A stretch of DNA of 64,000 nucleotides from Mesorhizobium sp. (GTDB taxonomy: Bacteria; Pseudomonadota; Alphaproteobacteria; Rhizobiales; Rhizobiaceae): positions 112,896 to 176,895 of the forward strand of contig NZ_JAFKID010000010.1 in NCBI RefSeq assembly GCF_017306545.1, read 5' to 3'. How positions within the stretch are numbered: the stretch's first letter is position 1; each line of letters opens with the position of its first letter. Of the stretch, positions 20,517 to 24,112 are shown one piece after another. Under the pieces are notes generated by a model, which saw only the letters and a list, made by a program, of their open reading frames with translations, searched no databases and was not told the origin of the DNA. Position numbers and translations under genes: made by a program.

Positions 20517-21137
20517 ATGCGGCTGATCGCCGAAGGGCTGGCGGGAGAACGGGGCGGCGAGTCGGTGTTTTCCGGCATCGACCTCGCGCTGGAAGACGGC
20601 GCCGCCTGCGTCGTCACCGGCCCGAACGGCTCCGGCAAGTCGACGCTGCTGCGCGTCATCGCCGGGCTGTTGCCGGCGGCCGGTGGCACGGTGAGACTGG
20701 ACGGCGGCGGCGCGGCGTTTCCCACCGTCGCCTCCGCTTCGCATTATCTCGGCCACCAGAACGCAATGAAGCCGGCGCTGACCGTGGCGGAAAATCTCGG
20801 CTTCTGGCGCGATTTTTCGGCGGACGCCGAGGCGAAGCCGGGACTGGGTGTCGAGGAAGCGCTGGAGGCGGTCGAGCTCGGCGGCATCGGCCACCTGCCC
20901 TTCGGCTACCTCTCCACCGGCCAACGTCGCCGCACGGCCATCGCCCGGCTGCTGGTCTGCCACCGGCCGATCTGGCTGCTCGACGAGCCGACCGCCGGGC
21001 TGGACAAGGCTTCGGAGCGGCGCTTTGCCGGACTGATGGGCGAGCACCTGCGCGGCGGCGGCATTATCGTGGCGGCGACACACCTGCCGCTGGGACTGGA
21101 AAGGGCGGTGGAACTGCGGATGGGGCTGGCAGGCTGA
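20517..21137 (+). CDS. ccmA: Heme exporter ATP-binding protein CcmA
   Basis: The 206-residue ATPase has Walker A GPNGSGKST (35-43), a divergent signature LSTGQRRR and Walker B LLDEPTAGLD. CcmA works with CcmB (and CcmC) in system I cytochrome c maturation, releasing holo-CcmE. A GGAG Shine-Dalgarno at 20508 sits 5-8 bases before the ATG at 20517 and decides against the longer frame from 20457. It is divergent from acnA. A type-A repeat separates it from ccmB, an unusual spacing for this operon. Confidence 0.95.
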   Translation: MRLIAEGLAGERGGESVFSGIDLALEDGAACVVTGPNGSGKSTLLRVIAGLLPAAGGTVRLDGGGAAFPTVASASHYLGHQNAMKPALTVAENLGFWRDFSADAEAKPGLGVEEALEAVELGGIGHLPFGYLSTGQRRRTAIARLLVCHRPIWLLDEPTAGLDKASERRFAGLMGEHLRGGGIIVAATHLPLGLERAVELRMGLAG

Positions 21138-21160: not shown

Positions 21161-21285
21161 CCGCCCCTCACCTGCCTGCCGGCATCCTCTCCCCGTAAAC
21201 GGGGCGAGGAAGGCTGGTCGCAACGCCAGCGCCTCCTCCTTCTCCCCGTTTACGGGGAGAAGGTGCCCGCAGGGCGGATGAGGGG
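21161..21285. repeat. Type-A double-hairpin palindromic element, copy 2
   Basis: The left end CCGCCCCTCACCTGCCTGCC is followed by TCTCCCCGTAAACGGGG; the right part has TCTCCCCGTTTACGGGGAGA then AGGTGCCCGCAGGGCGGATG and AGGGG. The ends are inverted relative to each other. It lies inside the ccm operon between ccmA and ccmB and could attenuate or process the transcript. Confidence 0.8.
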
Positions 21286-21318: not shown

Positions 21319-21984
21319 ATGCTAGCCCTTTATCTTCGCGACCTGCGTCTCGCCTTCCGTGCCGGCAGCGGGGCGCTGACGGGCGTCATCTTCTTCCTCG
21401 CCGTCATCGCCACCATCCCCTTCGGCGTCGGGCCGGACCTCAACCTGCTCGCACGCATCGGCCCGGCGATCCTGTGGATCGGCGCGCTGCTGTCCTGCCT
21501 GCTCGGCCTCGACCGGCTGTTTCAGGCCGACCGCGAGGACGGTTCGCTCGACCTTCTGGTGCTGGAGGCCGACCGCCACATGCCGGCGCTGACGGTGCTG
21601 GTGAAATGCCTCGCCCACTGGACGGCGAGCGTGTTGCCGCTGGTGGTGGCCGCGCCCTTGCTCGGCCTGTTCATGAACATGAGCGCCACCGGCATCGGCG
21701 CGACCACCTTGACCCTGCTCGCCGGCACGCCGGCCATCGCCTTCATCGGCGCCGCCGGCGCCGCGGTGGCGGTGGCGCTGCCGCGCGGCGGCGTGCTGAT
21801 TTCGGTGCTGGTGCTGCCGCTCGCCATCCCGGTGCTGATCTTCGGCGTCTCGGCCAGCTACGGCGCCGTCAACGATCCCGACCCGTTCCTGCAACCCTTT
21901 CTCGTCACCGTCGCGCTGACGCTGTTCTCCGCCGTGGTCGGGCCGGTGGCGGCGGCGGTTGCGCTGCGGCACGGCGCCGATTGA
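21319..21984 (+). CDS. ccmB: Heme exporter membrane protein CcmB
   Basis: The 221-residue protein has six hydrophobic helices and the normal CcmB length. The N-terminal LYLRDLRLAFRAGSGAL segment and the LLSCLLGLDRLFQADREDGSLD region are family features. CcmB is the membrane subunit that pairs with CcmA in the inner membrane. The start is 33 bp after the end of the repeat element at 21285. Directly downstream, where ccmC should be, only a 25-codon remnant is found. Confidence 0.95.
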   Translation: MLALYLRDLRLAFRAGSGALTGVIFFLAVIATIPFGVGPDLNLLARIGPAILWIGALLSCLLGLDRLFQADREDGSLDLLVLEADRHMPALTVLVKCLAHWTASVLPLVVAAPLLGLFMNMSATGIGATTLTLLAGTPAIAFIGAAGAAVAVALPRGGVLISVLVLPLAIPVLIFGVSASYGAVNDPDPFLQPFLVTVALTLFSAVVGPVAAAVALRHGAD

Positions 21985-22054
21985 CCGCGATCCGGAACGG
22001 CCTGCGGCAGCGCGCGCGATTTACGCGGCGCGGCAGGCCCGCTATGGAAGCTTT

Positions 22055-22132
22055 ATGAGCAAGACGACGGGTATCGGGCCGATGCAGGCCGCCATCGCCA
22101 GCCGAAGCGCCGGCCAAGGCGGGGCGGCATGA
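22055..22132 (+). pseudogene. ccmC: Probable ccmC remnant (body of gene absent)
   Basis: Between ccmB and ccmD, where a gene of roughly 250 codons for the heme-handling protein CcmC is expected, there is only a 25-codon frame. It starts MSKTTGIGP, plausible as a CcmC start, and ends MQAAIASRSAGQGGAA, plausible as a CcmC C-terminal tail. Its TGA overlaps the ATG of ccmD (ATGA), which is how intact ccmC-ccmD pairs are often coupled. The simplest reading is a large in-frame internal deletion. Natural loss and assembly collapse cannot be told apart here, and the match of the two ends to CcmC is from memory. Confidence 0.55.
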
Positions 22133-22296
22133 GCGCGCACGCCCTTTATGTGACGGCGGCCTATGCCGCGACCGCGGTCATCCTGACCGGGTTGATCGGC
22201 TGGGTGCTGTTCGACCTCAGGGCGCGCAGGCGCGAACTTGCCGAGCTGGAAGCTGCCGGCATCCGGCGCCGCTCCGACAGGGCAGGCAAACCGTGA
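22129..22296 (+). CDS. ccmD: Heme exporter protein CcmD
   Basis: The 55-residue protein has one membrane helix (about residues 8-30) followed by a basic, charged tail with RARRRELAELEA, the standard CcmD design. CcmD is a small subunit that helps release holo-CcmE from the CcmABC complex. The ATG overlaps the stop of the ccmC remnant and its own TGA overlaps the GTG start of ccmG, so the genes are tightly coupled. Confidence 0.88.
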   Translation: MSAHALYVTAAYAATAVILTGLIGWVLFDLRARRRELAELEAAGIRRRSDRAGKP

Positions 22297-22889
22297 GTAC
22301 GGACCGGAACGGCGGCGTGCGGGAGACAGCGCCGGCCAGTCGGCGCCGGCTGATTCTGCTGGTGCCGCTGCTGGTCTTCGTCGGGCTGGCCGGCCTGTTC
22401 CTTATGCAGCTTCTGTCCGGCCGCGACGTTTCGGCGATCCCGTCGGCGCTGATCGGCCAGCCGGCGCCGCAGACGCATCTGCCGGCGCTGGAAGGAACGA
22501 ACCTGCCCGGCCTCGATACGAAGGATTTCGCCGGCAAGGTGACGCTGCTCAACGTCTTCGCTTCCTGGTGCGCGCCCTGCCGCGAGGAGCATCCGGTGCT
22601 GCTGGCGCTGGCGCAGGACAAGCGCTACCGGCTCGCTGCGCTCAACTACAAGGACAAGCCGGAGAACGCCCGCCGCTTCCTCGGCGAACTGGGCAATCCG
22701 TTCGCCGCCATCGGCGTCGACGAAGCCGGCCGCACGGCGATCGACTGGGGCGTCTACGGCGTGCCGGAAACCTTCATCGTCGGCAAGGACGGCAGGATCG
22801 CCTACAAGCATGTCGGGCCGCTGACGCCCGACTCAGTGCGCTCGAAACTCCTTCCCGAAATCGAGAAGGCGCTGGCCGTGCCGGGTTAG
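22293..22889 (+). CDS. ccmG: Cytochrome c maturation thiol:disulfide oxidoreductase CcmG/DsbE
   Basis: The 198-residue protein has an N-terminal membrane anchor (about residues 20-41) and a periplasmic thioredoxin fold with the active site WCAPC (Cys93, Cys96) and the family GVYGVPETF cis-Pro loop. It keeps apocytochrome c thiols reduced for heme ligation. The start is GTG at 22293 within the ccmD stop. Its TAG stop is the first three bases of a type-C palindromic element. Confidence 0.94.
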   Translation: MSTDRNGGVRETAPASRRRLILLVPLLVFVGLAGLFLMQLLSGRDVSAIPSALIGQPAPQTHLPALEGTNLPGLDTKDFAGKVTLLNVFASWCAPCREEHPVLLALAQDKRYRLAALNYKDKPENARRFLGELGNPFAAIGVDEAGRTAIDWGVYGVPETFIVGKDGRIAYKHVGPLTPDSVRSKLLPEIEKALAVPG

Positions 22890-22990
22890 AGCCAAATGCC
22901 GTTTCCCTGAATCGGTATTCCGCTCTAACCATTTGTTTTTGAAGCATGATGTTTTTCGAAAAGTCTGCGACTTTTCGGCATCGTGCTTTA
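22887..22990 (+). repeat. Type-C palindromic element, copy 1
   Basis: It starts TAGAGC at the ccmG stop, has GCTCTA about 35 bp later (inverted end), then a second hairpin CGAAAAGT-N5-ACTTTTCG (with one variant base in this copy) near 22955-22980. Copies 2 and 3 are at 24010-24112 and 31120-31222. The second hairpin may act as a terminator for ccmG and for DUF1127 in the other direction. Confidence 0.8.
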
Positions 22991-23949: not shown

Positions 23950-24009
23950 GGCTGGTTCAGGGCGAATCGGATCGCGCCGATCCTACCATGAGCTGGCGGC
24001 CCGATCGTC

Positions 24010-24112
24010 AGAGCGACATGCCGTTTCCCTGAATCGGCTTGTCGCTCTGACCCATTGTTTTTGAGCATGATGTTTTCCGAAAAGTCTGCAACTTTTCGGC
24101 ATCATGCGTTGA
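24010..24112 (+). repeat. Type-C palindromic element, copy 2
   Basis: The first hairpin has 10-bp arms CAGAGCGACA / TGTCGCTCTG; the second is CCGAAAAGT-N5-ACTTTTCGG followed by CATCATGC. It lies between the FMN reductase gene and the 3' end of yciB. Confidence 0.8.

Follow-up and report, generated by a model that had tools for sequence, protein, structure and literature searches.

The System I cytochrome c maturation genes (ccmABCDG) encode, among others, the CcmABCD proteins, which are reported to form one complex (PMC9616876). Leaderless transcripts are another described system of relevance here; in S. meliloti, 171 leaderless starts and a TTG motif have been reported, with a dependence on RpoD that the authors speculate upon (PMC3616915). 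The third is translational coupling, reviewed in PMC12548453, and a short frame for a nonsense peptide is described in PMC13255528 as boosting the next gene in a synthetic part.

The locus reported here lies in a stretch of 64,000 nucleotides from a Mesorhizobium genome, hereafter the window. It has the same genes and the same order as System I, and CcmE and CcmF are also encoded in the same genome (contig C25); it differs in that ccmC stands beside chvA, while a short frame occupies its place in the operon. The TTG-based element and the -10-like part right before the ccmC ATG are like those of alphaproteobacterial leaderless or near-leaderless transcripts, from which the locus differs in that the remnants of ccmC mostly carry a Shine-Dalgarno-like word and the start at the ccmC element is a predicted one. 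As in translational coupling through a short upstream frame, the stop overlaps the next start, the register is kept and the peptide is free to vary; unlike the known coupling frames, this one is natural and derived from the ends of a departed gene, and its coupling effect is a prediction. The explanation favoured here, with a probability of about 0.7, is that, after the relocation of ccmC, its former start region has persisted as a promoter and a minimal coupling cistron for ccmD.

Methods

The comparison set comprised the 80 named loci closest to the window by CcmB. Trees of CcmB and CcmC were inferred for 29 genomes, and ccmC matches were surveyed in 151 genomes of the family and in 99 genomes of the genus. 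A DNA profile of ccmC start regions was built from 14 in-operon ccmC starts, covering positions -60 to +33, and scored against a control of 1590 pieces. The search for the promoter-like element permitted spans of 25-27 nt, and the column information at TTG and TA arises by construction, since the search pattern demanded those letters.

Results and discussion

Organisation of the ccm locus in the window

The features of the locus are as follows.

20517-21137, + strand: ccmA, heme ABC exporter ATP-binding protein (TIGR01189, 211 bits, cut-off 131.6)
21319-21984, + strand: ccmB, heme exporter protein, stop at 21982-21984 (TIGR01190, 253.6 bits, cut-off 156.2)
22002-22008, + strand: CTGCGGC block upstream of the promoter-like element, conserved in relatives (column counts, 66 relatives)
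22020-22047, + strand: promoter-like element, probably ccmC-derived, TTTACG (TTGC in relatives) and then CTATGG, spaced as in relatives
22055-22132, + strand: footprint frame of 25 codons, the start side of ccmC plus a stop, proposed coupling cistron (ORF list, frame conservation)
22129-22132, + strand: ATGA overlap of the short-frame stop and the ccmD start (direct reading; ccmC and ccmD overlap in relatives)
22129-22296, + strand: ccmD (TIGR03141, 54.2 bits, cut-off 25.95)
22293-22889, + strand: ccmG, DsbE-family thiol-disulfide protein (TIGR00385, 187.7 bits, cut-off 123.15)

The sequence, its ORFs and the NCBIfam matches bear out the first-pass annotation in that ccmA, ccmB, ccmD and ccmG are intact and in order, with only a 25-codon frame between ccmB and ccmD. 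This ATG frame translates as MSKTTGIGPMQAAIASRSAGQGGAA, and its TGA (22130-22132) overlaps the ccmD ATG (22129-22131), as had been noticed earlier and can be read directly in the window. No family of NCBIfam or Pfam, including those of CcmC (TIGR01191 and PF01578), matches the 25 residues. The frame is thus a footprint and not a CcmC.

Repeats are also present in the locus. A long imperfect palindrome with two 39-nt arms, 85% complementary and 21 nt apart, lies between ccmA and ccmB (21175-21273) and looks like a dispersed rhizobial repeat. An intergenic repeat occurs in two copies (22885-22989 and 24007-24110), which agree over stretches of 58 nt (83% identical) and 53 nt (89% identical) and each open with an inverted repeat; an ORF next to the relocated ccmC in locus L142, near 7065, begins with letters similar to this repeat.

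Relocation of ccmC and its history

Among the 80 named loci, 64 have ccmB and ccmD without ccmC between them, 63 of these with gaps of less than 500 nt; in the remaining one, L004, the gap is 1.6 kb and holds an ORF of 403 aa, which we take for a transposase. The gene lies between ccmB and ccmD in ten loci, 2.3-4.5 kb behind ccmB in three (L035, L037 and L071) and in a ccmCDG cluster on a separate contig in one (L065), while in two (L007 and L052) the sequence ends near ccmB. The gap is found in Mesorhizobium, Aminobacter, Pseudaminobacter, Aquamicrobium, Corticibacterium and some MAGs. The ten loci with ccmC in the operon belong to Nitratireductor, two Chelativorans, Tianweitania, Pararhizobium, RMAD-H1, M. 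microcysteis and three MAGs, RMAD-H1 and M. microcysteis both being filed as Mesorhizobium. The body of ccmC is thus absent from its ancestral place, as first proposed. The suggestion that an assembly collapse or a deletion artefact conceals an intact ccmC at the gap has a negligible probability: nothing was found in its favour, the same gap recurs in the independent assemblies of the 64 loci, and G042, the sister genome, shows an identical arrangement.

A single intact ccmC is encoded in the genome of the window, on a different contig (G000:C50:11944-12495, 267 bits, within a 251-aa ORF), and is the second copy that the first-pass annotation had allowed for; the expectation of that annotation that c-type cytochromes would be lost fails, since with an intact ccmC elsewhere in the genome they need not be. 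This ccmC is flanked by chvA, a glucan exporter gene (TIGR01192, 972.5 bits), and by a D-lyxose-isomerase-like gene (336.7 bits with Pfam; 228.1 with NCBIfam, under its cut-off of 350). The copy beside chvA (L142:7891-8643, - strand) is recognised as CcmC by both TIGR01191 (266.4 bits, cut-off 186) and PF01578 (129.9 bits).

Within the genus, ccmC was matched in 96 of 99 genomes, in 95 of them over the cut-off, and no genome had a second match. Of 30 fetched loci, 28 have chvA adjoining ccmC; the exceptions are L100 and L110, where chvA was undetected within the 1.35-kb ccmC flank. The other three genus genomes (G043, G086 and G088) gave no ccmC match, nor did they in a second search that used the protein. 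The chvA match of G086 stops 3 nt, and that of G088 103 nt, from the contig start, on the side where ccmC would follow, which makes an assembly gap the likely cause; G043 has no strong chvA match. Among the 14 genomes with an in-operon or split arrangement, seven have a strong chvA match, there apart from ccmC, and seven have weak matches only.

In the CcmB tree the relocated state falls on one branch (support 97/90). The free CcmC tree needs two changes, with Aminobacter and Corticibacterium placed apart with weak support; a single clade was not rejected (p 0.545), the tree constrained to it scoring 1.28 log units higher. The survey of the 151 family genomes gave one ccmC match in 148, two in G232 and G235 and none in G157, a genome of 1.5 Mb; leaving out the two-match genomes G232 and G235, no genome with both an in-operon and a relocated ccmC was seen among them. 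The trees indicate that the relocation is old, probably single and vertically inherited.

Other disruptions were observed in the family. Insertions of about 4.5, 4.4 and 2.35 kb separate ccmB and ccmC in L193, L194 and L195 (G101, G102 and G112), so that the ccmB/ccmC junction has been broken repeatedly. An independent split, with ccmA-ccmB on one contig and ccmCDG on the other, is seen in L065 and L196 (G109), where the genes ahead of the lone ccmCDG are presumably ATP-synthase genes, judging by a reading of the ORFs.

Descent of the footprint from the ccmC start region

The sequence TTG-N-YTAT precedes ccmC, mostly 9-10 nt from its ATG, in 11 of the 14 distinct upstream regions from in-operon loci and in 33 of the 35 from relocated ones. 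Among 80 distinct ccmB-ccmD gaps of less than 600 nt, 69 have the related form TTG-N-YTAW at a distance of 8-11 nt ahead of an ATG, as compared with a window background of 5 element-linked ATGs in 1755. The window's own gap falls outside the 69, having TTTACG and not TTGC as its -35-like part, with spacing and frame unchanged. With spans of 25-27 nt permitted, the element spans 26 nt in all 75 gap matches. Two elements at a fixed spacing are therefore kept among relatives, as in a sigma-70-type promoter. Most relatives have TAAGGG as the -10-like part in place of an earlier TATNTA, and TATGTA is still present in L062 and L068. The ccmCDG cluster of G109 (L150), standing alone, still carries the promoter-like element, which supports the element belonging to ccmC.

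The profile of in-operon starts scored 66 of the 80 gaps above the 99th percentile of the control and 39 above the control maximum. A joint profile scored 66 and 55 gaps above these levels, respectively, and the profile of relocated starts alone only 26 and 14. The sister genome G042 matches the in-operon profile with an E-value of 2.2e-6. The window scores 5.8 bits with that profile, under the control maximum of 6.0, and 8.9 bits with the joint profile, against a control maximum of 4.6. The earlier proposal of a ccmC origin for the front part of the short frame is thus upheld by a DNA-profile match that is strong in G042 and weak in the window. The corresponding check on the N-terminal peptide, in which the first 11 residues of the frame were compared with CcmC in ten loci, succeeded in G042 (p 0.001-0.007) and failed in the window and eight others. 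As peptide similarity is found in G042 only, the descent of the start region rests on the DNA profile, by which the footprint is identified as the old ccmC start region. Of the downstream end of ccmC, the stop/start overlap with ccmD is what remains at the old place; since this ATGA overlap of the ccmC TGA and the ccmD ATG occurs in 10 of 14 in-operon loci, it is ancestral.

The conserved block is G+C-rich and lies upstream of the ATG, and might accordingly be attributed to an RNA leader (an attenuator or riboswitch) in place of a promoter. We consider this very improbable, because the consensus fold of 20 out of 28 sequences drawn has 2 pairs at -0.47 kcal/mol with no pair changed on both sides, and because the single Rfam match in 21900-22300 (E 0.51) is on the other strand and scores 12.4 bits where the gathering score is 200. 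A structured RNA leader was rejected on these grounds, there being no covarying helices and no Rfam match above the gathering score.

Maintenance of the short frame

The frame of the element-linked ATGs is open to the ccmD overlap in 68 of 69 cases, the exception, L123, stopping one codon early. Among the other ATGs in the same gaps, 76 of 200 are in frame and open, some of them being internal codons of the same frame. An earlier count of the first ATG behind the element had given 66 of 75 in frame and open. Another count, 68 of 70, leans favourable, as the ATG was picked with the aid of a loose form of the element, which applies also to the counts by script and on the tree given below; the repeat without such a choice gave the 69 of 80. 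The short frame is carried by 84 of 92 gaps of less than 600 nt (81 by script; L033, L034 and L056 by reading) and is absent in seven, six of which belong to one subclade with an insertion, the seventh being L060. The features of a coupling cistron, namely an upstream stop that overlaps or abuts the downstream start and a conserved register, are therefore present.

On the ccmB tree of 70 rows, which are in frame by definition, the length of the short frame changes at least 22 times, giving 12 lengths of 7-25 codons. Set against 3 register-breaking events, which were counted by reading, these 22 give a binomial value of 2.3e-8, a rough figure obtained on the tree of a single short gene. Ahead of the frame, the spacer underwent 46 changes and occurs in all three registers (26/25/19), none of them preferred. 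Constraint on the peptide was not found in 25 pairs, where differences at codon positions 1, 2 and 3 number 50, 65 and 46.

These patterns bear upon a different explanation, that the remnant is a passive relic. On this view the old sequence, transcribed by read-through from ccmAB, would do no more than supply ccmD with a ribosome-binding leader, and the short frame would have no role. The unconstrained peptide, the degraded -10-like part of most relatives, the Shine-Dalgarno-like word that 55 of 69 short frames have ahead of the ccmD ATG and the gaps that manage without the frame (six of one subclade and L060) would all agree with it. A passive relic would, however, hardly account for the near-universal opening of element-linked frames onto the ccmD overlap, for the absence of a preferred register in the spacer just upstream or for the constant span of the element, and is considered unlikely. 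Thus, comparison across relatives indicates that the short frame is maintained, and the footprint, common to a whole group of genera, looks maintained as well.

Insertions were observed in some of the gaps. In L003, L025, L121, L127, L129 and L139, about 350 nt are inserted between ccmB and the element; this subclade has kept the element about 60 nt before ccmD and has lost the short frame, and the insert in L003 possibly encodes a small protein. In L048, an insert between ccmB and the element has terminal inverted repeats by eye and is MITE-like, and the promoter-like element and the short frame are intact.

Start type and proposed function

A Shine-Dalgarno-like word is rare before ccmC (2 of 14 in-operon and 5 of 35 relocated regions). 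Taken with the nearness of the -10-like part, this points to a leaderless or near-leaderless start for ccmC. Such a word is common before the footprint ATG (61 of 69), so that the type of start seemingly changed after ccmC departed. As the -10-like part changed while the Shine-Dalgarno-like word appeared, the promoter may have decayed.

The preferred explanation, of a surviving promoter and coupling cistron, involves the following events. As the comparison shows, in the ancestor of the Mesorhizobium-Aminobacter-Pseudaminobacter-Aquamicrobium-Corticibacterium group ccmC was placed downstream of chvA with its own promoter region, and the original body of the gene was lost from the operon, either before or after this copying. 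Left between ccmB and ccmD are the promoter-like element, a few codons headed by a start codon, and a stop overlapping the ccmD ATG. RNA polymerase would start at the element just ahead of the short frame, and ribosomes would translate the frame and restart at the overlapping ccmD AUG, whereby the frame would serve ccmD, and perhaps ccmG, as a minimal coupling cistron. What counts would be that the frame is translated, and not which peptide results. Since CcmC would be made from the new site, normal maturation of cytochrome c is expected. Sequence comparison establishes the relocation, the element in common, the register and the overlap; a promoter role of the element towards ccmD and ccmG, and translational coupling of the short frame to ccmD, we infer. 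Points against this explanation are the weak scores and diverged -35-like part of the window, the low yield of the profile of relocated starts, the possible decay of the promoter, the gaps that lack the short frame together with the early stop in L123, and the restriction of N-terminal peptide similarity to G042.

In a more general form, for which the odds appear about even, selection would have kept the start signal and the stop/start junction of a departed gene as a ghost cistron coupling into the next gene, and the ghost of ccmC would have served ccmD across several genera while shifting from a leaderless-type to a Shine-Dalgarno-type start.

Conclusions

The change of place of a gene is ordinary. 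The retention of its two ends as a probable coupling device across genera is undescribed among the matches listed; likewise, a ccmC footprint is undescribed among the matches listed for ccmC in rhizobia and for such footprints, which consist of titles and abstract openings in which a report may be missed. As CcmC and CcmD are reported to belong to one complex (PMC9616876), the separation of their genes raises the question of how their amounts stay matched.

The locus also illustrates that a gene absent from its operon is not necessarily absent from the genome. It points to a way in which a middle gene may drop out of an operon and leave its neighbour undisturbed, the ends that would start transcription and pass on ribosomes being kept while the body is gone, and the many related species found at different stages of this process constitute a natural series.
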